Source: Halorussus amylolyticus (GTDB lineage: Archaea > Halobacteriota > Halobacteria > Halobacteriales > Haladaptataceae). From it: a stretch of DNA of 64,000 bases. The notes beneath the pieces were generated by a model. The model was given only the letters and a program-made list of their open reading frames with translations, had not been told where the DNA came from and did not search any database. This document shows positions 57,522 to 64,000 of this stretch, piece after piece; position 1 is the stretch's first letter; each line of letters starts with the position of its first letter. A program made the position numbers and the translations under genes. The stretch covers positions 294,917 to 358,916 of the forward strand of contig NZ_ML974130.1 in NCBI RefSeq assembly GCF_004143485.2, read 5' to 3'.

Positions 57522-58652
57522 CTACGCCTCCTCCGGCGGCGGTCGCTCGCCGAGCGTCACCCGGACTCGCTGGCGCTCGCCGTCGCGCAGGATTCGCATT
57601 CTCACCGTATCTCCGGGGCGTTTTTGGGTGAGGACGCTCGCGAGGTCCTCCTGCGAGGCGATTCGCTGGCCGTCCACTCGGAGAATCACGTCGCCGCCGA
57701 CCGGGATTTCGAAATCGTCGATTCGCTTGCTGTCGTCGCTCCCGCGAAGCGTCCCCGCCACGGGCGACCCCGGAACCACGTCGTTCACCAGCACGCCGCG
57801 ATTGACGCCGAGGTCGTTGGCGTCGGCGACGGTCGGCGTCACGTCTGTCGAGGTGATGCCGAGGTACGAGTGGGTGTACGACCCGTTCTGAATCAGCGCG
57901 GGGACGACCCGTTTGAGCCGACTCGCCGGGACCGCGAACCCGGTGTTCTCCCCGCCCGCCGCGCTCGCGGTGTTGACGCCGACGACCGCGCCCGCGCAGT
58001 TCACGAGCGGCCCGCCGCTGTTGCCGGGATTGATGGCCGCGGTCGTCTGGATGGTGTTCGGAATCGTGAACCGCGGTCCCTCCGCGGCGACCGCGGGCAT
58101 CGACCGATTCGTTCCGCTCACGATGCCGTCGGTGATGGTTCCCTGAAGCCCGAGCGGGCTTCCGAACGCCGCGACTCGCTGGCCGGGTTCGGGTTCGCTC
58201 GCGTTCACCCCGAGCGGGTCGGCGTAGTCGGGTGCGTTCCCGACTCGGAGGACCGCGAGGTCGCTGTAGGCGTCGGTGCCGACGACTTCGGCGGTCCGCC
58301 ACTGGCCGCGGTCGAACTGGACTTCGACCTCCGAGGCGTTGCCGACGACGTGCTGATTCGTAACGACGTGCCCTGACTCGTCGTAGACGAATCCCGACCC
58401 GAGTCCGCTCGCGTTCTGGCCGCTGACCCGCACGGTGACGACCGACTCTATCGTCTCGTCGTACAGCGATTCGAAGTCGCACGCGATTTGGGTCTGGACG
58501 CTGGCGTGCGTGACGCGCAGTTCTCCGTCCGAGTCGTCGAGCGCGTTCGACTCTCCGAGTGAGGGCGCAGGCGCTCCAGCGCCTGCGCCCGCGCTCGCCG
58601 GTCCCACCCCGAGAAGCGCGAGTGCGAGAAGTACGGCGAATGGTTCGCGCAT
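57522..58652 (-). CDS. HtrA/DegP-type serine protease with PDZ domain
   Basis: 376 residues. Signal peptide at the start (MREPFAVLLALALLGV), then a trypsin-like domain with His in VTNQHVVG, Asp in YSDLAVL and Ser in NPGNSGGPL, and a C-terminal PDZ domain (YLGITSTDVTPTVADANDLGVNRGVLVND). An exported quality-control protease. A perfect 12-bp hairpin (58563-58590) lies in the Ala/Gly-rich leader junction. It starts at ATG 58652 and is convergent with the FAD oxidoreductase. Confidence 0.88.
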   Translation of the reverse strand: MREPFAVLLALALLGVGPASAGAGAGAPAPSLGESNALDDSDGELRVTHASVQTQIACDFESLYDETIESVVTVRVSGQNASGLGSGFVYDESGHVVTNQHVVGNASEVEVQFDRGQWRTAEVVGTDAYSDLAVLRVGNAPDYADPLGVNASEPEPGQRVAAFGSPLGLQGTITDGIVSGTNRSMPAVAAEGPRFTIPNTIQTTAAINPGNSGGPLVNCAGAVVGVNTASAAGGENTGFAVPASRLKRVVPALIQNGSYTHSYLGITSTDVTPTVADANDLGVNRGVLVNDVVPGSPVAGTLRGSDDSKRIDDFEIPVGGDVILRVDGQRIASQEDLASVLTQKRPGDTVRMRILRDGERQRVRVTLGERPPPEEA

Positions 58653-58820
58653 GCGACCCGGAAACGGCACCGTCCGCAAAGAAAGTCGTGGCCTCCTTCC
58701 AATCTCTGCGGTTCGTAATCCGGGTCGTCCGTAGTCCGGGTCGTCCGTAGTCCGGGTCGTCTCGTTCCTGCCGAACTTCGAGACGGGTGTTTTTTGTGAC
58801 AGACGCGCAACGCCGGAGAT

Positions 58821-59259: not shown

Positions 59260-62200
59260 ATGATACCAATCGAAGACGGACCGGCGCGACGAAAGGCTAT
59301 CGCGGTGCTTCTCGCTTGCATCGTCGTGACCAGTGTCCTTTTTACGGGAGTGGGGTTCGCTGAACCGACGGGAGTTTCAGACGGTGAAACCGACGTAGTC
59401 GATGCACAGAACGGTAGTCAGGACGACGAGGGGTCGATGACGCCCACGGGGTTGGTCGACCTCGAAAATAGCTCGACAAAGGTGACGGGTGCAGAATCCG
59501 GCGAGCAGTCGGGATGGTCGGTAACCAACGCTGGCGACGTGAACGGCGACGGCATCGACGATGTCGTCGTCACCGCGCCGTTCAACGACGGAGCCGGAAA
59601 CGATTCCGGTGCGGTGTATCTGTTCTACGGTCCCGTCGATACGGACGACCTCGATGTCAGCGAGGCCGACGCGACACTCGTCGGCGAGGACGCTGGCGAC
59701 TGGGCTGGCTTCTCCGTCGCGACGGGCGACCTGAACGGGGACGACCGGTCCGAACTCGTCGTCGGGGCACCACGCGCCGGGGATTCGGGCGCGGTCTACG
59801 TGTTCGAGGACGGGCGCTCGCTCTCCGGAACGGTCTCGCTCGCCGACGCCGACGCGAAAGCGACGGGCGAAGCCGAGGGCGACCGTGCAGGGTGGTCGGT
59901 CGCGGCCCGCAACGTCTCGAACGCCAGCGAACCGGGTCTCGTCGTCGGCGCTCCGACGGACGAACGGAGCCCTGACAACGGGTCCGCGTACCTCCTCTCG
60001 CTGGAGTCAGCCGAGAGCCAAGCCGACCTCTCGGGGGCGGACGCGAAGCTCGTCGGCGAGGAGAACGGCGACCTCGCTGGCTGGTCGGTCGATTGGACCG
60101 GTGACGCGCAGGCGGTCGTCGGTGCCAGATGGCACGACGGCCCGGCCGGAAACGACTCCGGGGCCGCGTACCTCGTCTCGGAGGACGTTCGCGGCGAGTC
60201 GAGTCTCGCCGACGCCGACGTGAAGTTCGTCGGTTCGAACGCCGGTGACAACGCCGGGTTCTCCGTGAGTGGCGTGGGCGATGTCAACGGTGACGACCGC
60301 GCCGAGGTTGCCATCGGCGCGCCGCTCAACGACGACCGCGGGCCGAACGCTGGCACCGGCTACATCGCGTTCGAGTCCGACTCGCTCTCGGGCGTCGTCG
60401 ACCTCGCGGACGTTGGCGGGCGTGTTCAAGGCGAATCGGCCGGGGACCGATTGGGATGGTCGGTCGGGAGTGCTGGCGACATAGACGCCGACGGCTACGC
60501 CGACCTCCTCATCGGTGCGCCGAATCACGACCAGCGCGGTGCTGCCTACTTACTCTACGGGAGTTCGACGGCGGGTCAACTGAAGGTGGCGAAGCTTCAG
60601 GGCGAAGGCTCCGGCGGCATGGTCGGCGCGTCCGTCGCGGGTGTCGGTGACACGAACGGCGACGGGACGGACGACGTTCTCGTCGGCGCGCCCGGCGAGG
60701 GCGAGTCGGCCGCTGGCGCGGCATACCTGCTCACCGGCACGTCCGGAGGGCTGGAACAGGAGGCCGACCGGCAGTCTGCAGGCGGTGTGCTCGAAGAAAT
60801 CGAACAGACGCTCGACCGGCAGTCCGAAGGCGGCCTCCTCGAAGCAGTCGAACAGGTACTCGACCGGCAACTGATTGCCGACGAGGACGAGTCCGAGAGC
60901 GAACGCTCCGACGGACGAACGGGCGATGTGGAGCAAGGTGTCGAGGACGAACAAGGCGTCGAGGACGAACAAGGCGTCGAGGACGAACAAGGCGTTGAGG
61001 ACGAACAAGGCGTCGAGAACGACGCTCAGGTGGATGAGTCGGAGCAAAACGGCGAAGCGGATGCTGGGGAAGACGAACCGTCGAGCGACGAAAGCCGAGC
61101 GGGCGCGAACGAGCAGGTCACCGAGGAGGTGTTCGACGGCCCGGAGGGAGACCAGAACTCCGACCGGCAGAGCGACGGCGAGGGCAGTTCCGAATCGGAC
61201 GCCGATGTCGGCGAGAACGACGCGAGCAGTGACGAGCGGCGCGACGACGGGCAAGCGAATAGCCCGACCGAGAACGACGACTCGGCGGCCGACGAATCGT
61301 TCCAGGACGACGAACCGGACGGCGGTGACGCCTCGTCGGACGACGCGAGCGACGGACAAGCGAGCAATCCGTCAGAAAACGACGAGTCGGTGGCCGACGA
61401 CGGCGAGCGAGACGGGAGCAATGCGGACGACAGCGAGGTAGACGACGGTACTCCGGACGAGAGTGGAGACGAAAGTGAGTCGGACGAAGGCGAGGACCGC
61501 GGCCAAGACGAGGCGAGCGATGGCGAGAGCGACGGAGGTGAAAGCAGTTCGGACGAGAGTAACGAAGACGAGAGCAATTCGGACGGAAGTGGTGAAGACG
61601 GGACTAACGACCGCAATCAAGACGAGAACACCGAGGAAGATAACCAAGACGAGAGAACTGGCGGGGAGGAAGACGAAAACAGCGACGAGACCGGGGACGA
61701 CAACGACGGAGACGAGCGCAACGAAGGCGAGGGCGACGGAGACGAAAGTGACGAGGACGACCGAGACGGAGATGAGAGTGACGAGAACGACCAAGACGAA
61801 GACGACCGCAATGAGGACGACGAGAACAACGACCGAGACGAAAACGAGAGTGACGAAGGTGAGGACGACCAAGACGACCGAACGGACACGGGAAGTGACG
61901 AACAGGAACAACAGCAGGGCGTCTTCATCTTCCAGAATCAGTGTCAAAGCCAGGAAAACGGCGACCAACACCAGGAACAGAATCAGGGGATAACCGGGGA
62001 CCAGACGCAACAGCAGTCGGGCGATTCGGCAGTCGTGCAGTCCCAATCCCAGAGCATCTACGTCGAGCAGAATCAGTGCCAGCAGCAGGGCGACGGCACC
62101 GACAACGACCAGACGCAGATGCAGTTCCTGAACATCGTCTTCGTCCAAGACGAGAGTCAAATCGAAGACGGCGAAGACGACGCGCAAAGTCAGGACCAAT

Positions 62201-64000
62201 TCATCGACTCCGACCAATCGTCTTCGCAGAATCAGGAGGACGATTCCCAACGGCAGACCCAGACGCAGGTGTTCACCGTCTTCTTCATGCAGGACGAGGA
62301 CCAGTCGGCTGGCAACGACTCGAACCGACAGTCTCAGGAACAGCGTATTGAGATTGACCAGAACGGCGACCAGACCCAAGGGAACGGGACGAACCAGACT
62401 CAGACCCAGTACCAACGGACCAACGTCGTCTACATGGGACAGGAACAGGTCCAGGACGACCAGGCCCAGTCTCAGAACCAATCGGTCGATGCCGAGCAGT
62501 ATCAGAACCAAGAGCAGGACGAGAACGGGAGTCAGAACCAGACCCAAGCGGAGAACGTCACGATAGCGCAGAATCAAACGCAGGGCCAGCAGAACGCCTC
62601 CGCGAACCAGACGCAGAATCAGTCGGTGGCCGTCAATCAGAGCCAGAATCAGTCTCAGGGCGGCGAGGAGTTCAATCAGACTCAGAATCAGAGCCAGCGC
62701 GTCGAAGCCGAGCAGAACGCCACCCAGAGCGGCGGTGAGAACCAGACCCAATCTCAGAACCAGACGATTAGCTCGAACCAGAGCCAGTCCCAGAACCAGA
62801 CGCTCGAAAACGATTCGGCCGACCAGCGCGTTTCGGTCGATGCGAACCAGTCGCAGGTGCAGAACCAGACCGGCGACAACAACACCCAGTCGCTGAATCA
62901 GACCGGTTCGGTGTCGGCGAACCAGACCCAGAATCAGTCGCGGAACACGTCCGGGACGACGGCGGACCCGAGCGAAGCGGCGTCGGCATCCTCGACGGAG
63001 ACCGAGGCGGGTGAGGCTTCGGACGAAGACGCCGAGACGGACGAGTCCGTGGACGAGGACTCCGAAGCGGACGAACCGACGACCGTCGAGGAGACGCAAT
63101 CGACGGACACCGAGACGGACGAATCCGAACGCGACTCGACGACTTCGGACTCCGAGGATGCCGAGTCGTCGAACGACGAGACGGACGACAGTGACGACTC
63201 GCCGGACGAGAACGCGGAGGAACAAGACCGGTCCAGAGAAGATACGGAAGAAGGAGGGACATCCAGCGAGAACGCGGAGAAGAGCGAATCGACGACCGGG
63301 GAAGACGACACCGAGGAGGATTCGACGACGAGCGACGACGAGGACCGTAGCGCCGACGGACCCGGCGACGAGACTGACGAACAATCGTCGTCGAGTGACG
63401 GTGAAAACGAGGACGAACCGGCAAGCGACGGCGGAGACGACGACCCCGAGGAGACCGAAGAGACGGACGGCGAAGAACCGCCGTCGGATGAGAACGCCGA
63501 GGAGGACGAATCGGAAACGAATGAACCGACCGAGTCGGAGGAAAATGACGGTGACGACGCGGAAGCAAACGACAACGACGAGGAAGCGGACGAGGACAAC
63601 GAGGAAGAAAGCGATAACGAAGCAGGGGAAGAAAACGCCGACAACGACGGAAACGAGTCGTCGGCCGATGAAGGCGAGTCCGAATCGGACGCCGAGACGG
63701 ATGACTCAGATGCCGACGAAAGCAACGCCGAGAACGAGGGGACGGACGGAGACGAGTCGAACGACGAGACCACGGAAGACGACCAGTCGGACGAGAGCGA
63801 AGCCGAGGGGGACGATACGTCGGGTGAGGACGCCGAGGCGGGCGAAGAAGACCAATCCGACGAAAGCGAGAACGAGGGCGACTCGCCGTCCGAGGAGAAC
63901 GACGAAAGCGAGAGTAGTGACGGAGACAGCGAGGAGACGGAGACCGGCGAAGACGCCGAACCGTCCGACGAAGGAACGGGGAACGAATCAGACGCCATCG
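59260..64000 (+). CDS. Giant secreted FG-GAP propeller protein with acidic and N/Q-rich glycosylation region (C-terminus beyond window)
   Basis: At least 1,580 residues without a stop to the window edge. Residues about 1-36 carry basic residues and a hydrophobic helix (signal or anchor). Then seven FG-GAP-like repeats of about 55-65 residues (to about residue 490), with Ca-binding loops such as DVNGDGIDD and GDVNGDDRAE and the conserved GAP motif, giving a seven-bladed propeller as in integrin alpha. Two repeats of about 17 residues (EADRQSAGGVLEEIEQ) follow, then a tandem GVEDEQ repeat (60940-61016) and a long Asp/Glu/Ser/Asn-rich stretch. From about 61910 a Gln/Asn-rich region with alternating NQTQ/NQSQ carries more than twenty N-x-S/T sequons. 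From about 62950 the sequence is again extremely acidic. It is likely an extracellular, heavily glycosylated adhesin or halomucin-like protein. The start is the ATG 59260. Confidence 0.82.
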   Translation, partial: MIPIEDGPARRKAIAVLLACIVVTSVLFTGVGFAEPTGVSDGETDVVDAQNGSQDDEGSMTPTGLVDLENSSTKVTGAESGEQSGWSVTNAGDVNGDGIDDVVVTAPFNDGAGNDSGAVYLFYGPVDTDDLDVSEADATLVGEDAGDWAGFSVATGDLNGDDRSELVVGAPRAGDSGAVYVFEDGRSLSGTVSLADADAKATGEAEGDRAGWSVAARNVSNASEPGLVVGAPTDERSPDNGSAYLLSLESAESQADLSGADAKLVGEENGDLAGWSVDWTGDAQAVVGARWHDGPAGNDSGAAYLVSEDVRGESSLADADVKFVGSNAGDNAGFSVSGVGDVNGDDRAEVAIGAPLNDDRGPNAGTGYIAFESDSLSGVVDLADVGGRVQGESAGDRLGWSVGSAGDIDADGYADLLIGAPNHDQRGAAYLLYGSSTAGQLKVAKLQGEGSGGMVGASVAGVGDTNGDGTDDVLVGAPGEGESAAGAAYLLTGTSGGLEQEADRQSAGGVLEEIEQTLDRQSEGGLLEAVEQVLDRQLIADEDESESERSDGRTGDVEQGVEDEQGVEDEQGVEDEQGVEDEQGVENDAQVDESEQNGEADAGEDEPSSDESRAGANEQVTEEVFDGPEGDQNSDRQSDGEGSSESDADVGENDASSDERRDDGQANSPTENDDSAADESFQDDEPDGGDASSDDASDGQASNPSENDESVADDGERDGSNADDSEVDDGTPDESGDESESDEGEDRGQDEASDGESDGGESSSDESNEDESNSDGSGEDGTNDRNQDENTEEDNQDERTGGEEDENSDETGDDNDGDERNEGEGDGDESDEDDRDGDESDENDQDEDDRNEDDENNDRDENESDEGEDDQDDRTDTGSDEQEQQQGVFIFQNQCQSQENGDQHQEQNQGITGDQTQQQSGDSAVVQSQSQSIYVEQNQCQQQGDGTDNDQTQMQFLNIVFVQDESQIEDGEDDAQSQDQFIDSDQSSSQNQEDDSQRQTQTQVFTVFFMQDEDQSAGNDSNRQSQEQRIEIDQNGDQTQGNGTNQTQTQYQRTNVVYMGQEQVQDDQAQSQNQSVDAEQYQNQEQDENGSQNQTQAENVTIAQNQTQGQQNASANQTQNQSVAVNQSQNQSQGGEEFNQTQNQSQRVEAEQNATQSGGENQTQSQNQTISSNQSQSQNQTLENDSADQRVSVDANQSQVQNQTGDNNTQSLNQTGSVSANQTQNQSRNTSGTTADPSEAASASSTETEAGEASDEDAETDESVDEDSEADEPTTVEETQSTDTETDESERDSTTSDSEDAESSNDETDDSDDSPDENAEEQDRSREDTEEGGTSSENAEKSESTTGEDDTEEDSTTSDDEDRSADGPGDETDEQSSSSDGENEDEPASDGGDDDPEETEETDGEEPPSDENAEEDESETNEPTESEENDGDDAEANDNDEEADEDNEEESDNEAGEENADNDGNESSADEGESESDAETDDSDADESNAENEGTDGDESNDETTEDDQSDESEAEGDDTSGEDAEAGEEDQSDESENEGDSPSEENDESESSDGDSEETETGEDAEPSDEGTGNESDAI

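Follow-up and report, generated by a model that had tools for sequence, protein, structure and literature searches.

Archaeal cell envelopes lack an outer membrane. The described systems that come closest to the locus reported here include the curli, extracellular fibres whose subunits share the kernel N-$-Psi-$-Psi-$-Q-x-G-x-x-N (PMC10192328). Archaea also assemble extracellular beta-arch polymers: the sheath protein SH of Methanospirillum hungatei is amyloid-like and carries possible glycosylation sites (PMC10593813). Among haloarchaea, Haloquadratum walsbyi secretes the extracellular protein halomucin (PMC4378361), and the biofilm matrix of Haloferax volcanii is positive for Congo red and ThT, the responsible protein being not established and a candidate only named (PMC4180959). 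In the literature searched, no paper joins haloarchaea with functional amyloid, nor haloarchaea with FG-GAP.

Here I describe two neighbouring genes of Halorussus amylolyticus that are undescribed in the literature and family libraries searched. The first, the propeller-Gln gene, lies at the end of the 64,000-nucleotide stretch of DNA that was analysed (the window), and the second encodes a repeat protein. That the one follows the other in every genome carrying the first suggests an unrecognised two-part, sugar-coated surface structure.

A previous sequence-only reading of the window had described a seven-repeat FG-GAP domain, two acidic simple-sequence stretches and an alternating Gln region between them. 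These observations were all confirmed with small corrections, and the interpretation built on them, a new glycosylated and possibly curlin-like surface protein, is partly supported. The start codon opens a single unbroken frame that continues to a normal stop 23 nt past the window end, and therefore only the last seven codons fall outside (Table 1). TIGR04207 (halo_sig_pep) matches the N-terminus weakly, below its cut-off. Pfam PF01839 matches the propeller with E=4.6e-38 (129 bits against a gathering cut-off of 22.1), and seven blade motifs can be recognised by eye, with a GD-x-N/D-type loop in blades 1, 2, 5, 6 and 7 and degenerate versions in blades 3 and 4. The best PDB relatives found by phmmer are integrin alpha chains (integrin alpha-V, 1e-17). 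Judged from sequence by both score and a count of about seven blades, the domain is an FG-GAP, integrin-alpha-like propeller. By eye, no transmembrane segment or PGF-CTERM anchor is seen in the tail, and NCBIfam offered no named family. Divergent from the propeller gene, an HtrA-like protease of the trypsin-PDZ type is encoded on the minus strand (57522-58679), likewise with a signal peptide.

Table 1. Features of the gene pair and its surroundings, in window numbering unless a handle precedes the positions.
Feature	Position	Strand	Basis or remark
Propeller-Gln gene, whole	59260..64000 (stop 64023)	+	1587 aa; mature 163 kDa, pI 4.05
Sec-type signal peptide, ~aa 1-35	59260..59364	+	By eye, from a basic N-terminus, a hydrophobic core and GFA|EP; 7 orthologue N-termini
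FG-GAP beta-propeller, seven-bladed, integrin-alpha-like, aa 81-495	59500..60744	+	Pfam, PDB phmmer, blade motifs
Acidic low-complexity linker, aa 496-875	60745..61884	+	D+E 43%; short EQGVED tandem inside
Alternating-Gln domain, aa 876-1232, 357 aa	61885..62955	+	Q periodicity
Cys895 and Cys940, NQCQ context, conserved pair 45 aa apart	61942..62079	+	Orthologue alignment
Sequon-dense C-terminal part of Gln domain	62383..62955	+	~25 N-X-S/T
Acidic Ser/Thr-rich tail, aa 1233-1587	62956..64000 (to 64023)	+	D+E 46%
Repeat-protein gene, 938 aa, signal peptide by eye	64653-67469 (G000 C1 359569-362385), outside window	+	Downstream of propeller-Gln gene
CAP-domain (YkwD-type) protein	L026:10510-11940 (67593-69023)	+	By eye also L028:12070-13521 (-)
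Small, probably secreted protein near pair	L026:12013-12816; L027:8776-9555; L028:8166-8927	+; -; -	VDCxxxxVxLxAPExxxYxVTVxVANI

The alternation of Gln is real. The domain contains 61 Gln pairs spaced i,i+2, compared with 29 +/- 4 in shuffled sequences, QQ occurs 7 times against 29, and the Gln autocorrelation peaks at lags of 2, 12 and 23-25. Such a pattern is consistent with beta strands. A unit such as NQTQNQSVAVNQSQNQSQ places Q and V on one face and N, S and T on the other, and I infer that if Q and V point inside, the sequon residues would be left outside. The earlier count of more than twenty NQT or NQS triplets was slightly high, the actual number being 19 (11 NQT and 8 NQS), but more than twenty sequons is correct: there are 28 N-X-S/T, against about 7 expected from a full shuffle and 8.3-8.7 when every Q is held fixed. 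The C-terminal half of the domain has 25 sequons; when just the residues adjacent to Q are shuffled, 11.5 are expected there, and none of 2000 shuffles gave more than 18. Direction is also informative, because plain alternation of N, S and T would give N-Q-S/T and S/T-Q-N about equally. The window protein has 19 NQ[S/T] against 9 [S/T]QN, and the seven orthologues together, which are related by descent and so are not seven independent tests, have 97 against 48; the sequon direction is therefore favoured beyond mere N/S/T alternation. Enrichment is likewise seen in all six of the other orthologues, the seven totals being 28, 24, 21, 21, 19, 20 and 16, of which 14-25 fall in the C-terminal half.

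The window genome encodes an oligosaccharyltransferase of the STT3/AglB type (hits of 88 and 29 bits against a cut-off of 24.5). With an export signal recognised by eye, a sequon excess and this enzyme, the prerequisites for N-glycosylation are present, and the protein is predicted to be glycosylated. If it is, the Gln domain would be an unusually dense natural array of N-glycans on a beta scaffold, set on alternate residues of one predicted face. Of the glycosylated surface protein suggested earlier, a secreted, sequon-dense protein is what the sequence supports.

Strong profile matches to the Gln domain were found only in seven haloarchaeal genomes from three families: 3 of the 18 Halorussus genomes (the window genome G000, G012 and G016), Halostella pelagica DL-M4 (G097), Halobacteria archaeon HArc-gm2 (G316) and two more of the latter's genus (G177 and G300). 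It has no match in the plasmid collection. In all seven proteins a signal peptide is followed by the propeller, an acidic linker, the Gln domain and an acidic or Thr-rich tail, and thus the pairing of propeller and N/Q region, on which the sequence-only reading had staked itself, held in every homologue found. Across the seven-way alignment (38-55% identity), the invariant positions are mostly Gln columns, and two Cys in an xQCQ context are spaced 43-45 aa apart in each of the seven. Weak class-wide matches to the profile (E ~1e-4 to 1e-8) were left out of the homologue count; of six inspected, four appear to be readings of non-coding frames and the other two are members of a separate Q/GA-repeat family.

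Other Gln-rich repeat proteins were also seen. Loci L044 and L047 (G159 and G034) encode another haloarchaeal repeat protein, which has no assigned family, with ~24-aa QxQxVSVTQVQxAAxGAAxGA units in which alternating Gln/Val strands are joined by Gly-Ala turns. In further haloarchaeal families, clusters L089, L092 and L093 (G273, G138 and G120) contain two to three adjoining repeat proteins rich in Gln (16-27%), which carry signal peptides and, in some cases, acidic linkers. These clusters suggest a wider superfamily of Gln-repeat matrix proteins.

The second gene of the pair lies outside the window and for that reason escaped the first reading. In all seven genomes, a homologue of the repeat protein is the next co-directional gene after the propeller-Gln gene. 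The gap between the two measures 630 nt in the window genome and, in the genomes outside Halorussus, 127-219 nt; in G012 and G016 a small gene in reverse orientation separates them. The G177 copy of the repeat-protein gene, as read, is frame-disrupted, and that of G300 is broken up among several frames. The protein consists of 23/24-aa units of the form GDDN-x-Q-x3-Q (GDDN-E-Q-E-A-E-Q-E-N-E-Q in the window genome), with turns spaced 23-25 residues apart and, in several species, a super-period of 46-48. No model in Pfam or NCBIfam covers it. Ten repeat proteins each contain exactly one pair of Cys, near the start and 46-50 aa apart, a distance of about two units.

Could such sequences be a neutral expansion of simple repeats without function? 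Low complexity, tandem repeats and a variable repeat number are what that would produce, but Gln columns stay invariant at 38-55% identity, 16-28 sequons are kept in seven of seven proteins and gene order is kept across three families. I reject this explanation, which conservation largely refutes and which is left with almost no probability. Another possibility follows from the partner of the window genome, in which the GDDN-type turn occurs about 30 times and the outward residues are nearly all Glu or Asp: stacked turns and acidic rows might bind Ca/Mg or act as a template for salt or for mineral surfaces, the propeller then being a cell-side receptor. Acidic surfaces are an ordinary haloarchaeal adaptation, however, and in other genera many outward residues are Ser or Thr, and I consider such a cation or mineral array improbable.

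The repeat family is also present in three genomes without a propeller-Gln gene (G286, G211 and G312). G211, from a different haloarchaeal family, encodes a second repeat protein (L088:6995-9634) whose N-terminal part is 73% identical to the partner in the window genome, and this patchy distribution suggests horizontal transfer. Two further genes were seen in the neighbourhood of the pair (Table 1). A CAP-domain protein is linked to it in two Halorussus genomes, and a small protein with no assigned family is found near it in each of the three Halorussus genomes with the pair.

AlphaFold2 modelling of the repeat protein used the Halostella copy (residues 35-420, eight sequences) and gave a nearly all-beta structure (pLDDT 75, pTM 0.69) in which the later strands are 18-21 residues long and the turns 4-6. 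Foldseek found no significant fold match for it in the PDB, and its few non-significant neighbours, CsgA and FapC among them, are for the most part beta-helices or solenoids. The beta model is that of the Halostella copy; the E/Q/A-rich repeats of the copy in the window genome could be helical. The Gln domain of the window protein is predicted at low confidence (pLDDT 51) to have about 12 strands of ~19 aa, spaced 23-24, and this strand length agrees with that of the repeat protein. A fold search with the model returned nothing significant in the PDB and weak matches mostly to antiparallel barrels; given these and the pLDDT, a solenoid topology is not established for the Gln domain. A sequence search of the PDB found no relatives of either the Gln domain or the repeat domain.

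Both proteins have a pI of 4.05 and the flanks of the Gln domain are 43-46% D+E, as would suit a hydrated capsule or mucin-like shield in which acidic repeats and sequons hold water and cations without ordered assembly; halomucin, a secreted haloarchaeal protective protein, is a precedent (PMC4378361). Such a hydrophilic polymer would have no need of near-invariant Gln and regular 23/24-aa turns across divergent orthologues, and the ordered beta structure predicted for the partner also argues against it. I regard the shield as unlikely.

The reading that I favour, with a probability of roughly 45%, is a two-gene extracellular fibre or matrix analogous to curli, in which the propeller protein would be a glycosylated head, cap or nucleator. 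Assembly is a reasonable hypothesis because the constant neighbour of the propeller-Gln gene encodes a second secreted, Gln-striped repeat protein. After Sec export, the repeat protein may stack ~19-residue beta strands joined by GDDN turns, with Gln, Asn and Ala inward, forming amide ladders, and Asp and Glu outward, and so would make the main strand of the fibre. The Gln domain, which has an equal strand-plus-turn length, could associate with this strand, cap it or nucleate it. In the C-terminal half of the domain, outward Asn and Ser/Thr at alternate positions would carry a coat of N-linked glycans, and the propeller, on its long acidic tether, may serve as a head that binds a ligand or a neighbour. 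The account in full detail, in which the Gln-ladder repeat protein forms an extracellular polymer, the propeller protein caps or nucleates it, and the latter's own Gln-striped rod bears N-glycans on its outward face, giving a glycan-coated beta fibre with an integrin-like head and no sequence kinship to curlins, is more doubtful.

What counts for the fibre is that propeller and Gln domain are fused, and the repeat gene comes next, in seven of seven genomes of three families, and that both proteins share signal peptides (by eye), a pI of about 4, Gln striping, a 23-24-aa unit and a single Cys pair near the start (in seven Gln domains and ten repeat proteins). The beta model of the partner, the equal strand length in the Gln domain, the excess of NQ[S/T], the STT3 homologues and the Haloferax matrix (PMC4180959) point in the same direction. 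Counting against it are the low pLDDT of the Gln domain, the lack of significant fold matches, the repeat proteins without a propeller-Gln gene and the possibly helical copy in the window genome, as well as a profile-profile comparison of Gln domain and repeat protein that gave no secure homology (hhalign probability 7%).

The main rival is a rigid glycosylated stalk, that is, a monomeric beta rod holding the propeller off the cell as an adhesin, with the repeat protein an independent and merely co-regulated matrix protein. Long acidic tethers flank the Gln domain, the repeat protein does exist alone, and in Halorussus paralogues that lack a Gln domain the same propeller sits on Thr-rich stalks. 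These paralogues, however, end in a C-terminal hydrophobic segment, whereas the Gln-domain proteins have no visible C-terminal membrane anchor, and constant adjacency, the common Cys pair and the common period argue for joint function. I think a stalk rather unlikely, if less so than the shield. In several haloarchaeal families the pair is a concrete candidate for a structural fibre of the matrix.

Membership of the curlin family, which the sequence-only reading had raised, is rejected for both proteins. Up to E=5, PF07012 matches none of the five proteins compared with it, two of them propeller orthologues and the other three repeat proteins, and it finds nothing in the whole window genome at E<=1, whereas an E. 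coli control and one protein of G016 do match. The full kernel occurs 11 times in the G016 curlin used as control and not once in the Gln domain or in any of five repeat proteins. This G016 protein (L106:1222-2265, minus strand; C5 ~49.7-50.3 kb) scores over the PF07012 cut-off; behind its signal peptide it has NDADVDQDGDDN repeats, with a charged, coiled-coil-like segment at the C-terminus. One archaeal protein with curli-like repeats had been noted earlier (PMC3521004), so the G016 protein has a precedent. A true curlin-repeat protein and the different, GDDN repeat family occur together in one Halorussus genome.

How, then, does the pair compare with known systems? The propeller is like that of integrin alpha in blade count and loop motifs, and alpha-V is its best PDB match, but two blades are degenerate, acidic linkers and a Gln domain are joined to it, and there are no legs or transmembrane helix. 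Halomucin, at 9159 aa (PMC4378361), is about six times as long as the 1587 aa of the window protein in a comparison by length alone, and the earlier comparison with halomucin-like giants is not supported as to size. The sheath protein SH differs in being a single protein that forms hoops and has a cap domain, and the portion of its description used here mentions neither a propeller nor Gln-striped repeats (PMC10593813). Pseudomonas FapC is likewise a repeat-built functional amyloid and a non-significant Foldseek neighbour of the partner model, with which it has no significant match in sequence or fold. Curli (CsgA/CsgB) differ in having two 7-residue motifs where, in the haloarchaeal proteins, a single turn can be recognised every 23/24 aa and the strands are ~19 aa long; a propeller head, sequons and an outer face that is acidic further set the haloarchaeal pair apart. 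The likenesses are secreted Gln/Asn-rich repeats of about 23 aa, the amide ladders expected in the repeat protein, and a major repeat protein whose gene adjoins that of another Gln-striped protein (for curli, see PMC10192328). By analogy, then, and outside the curlin family, the proposed way of working of the haloarchaeal pair resembles that of curli.
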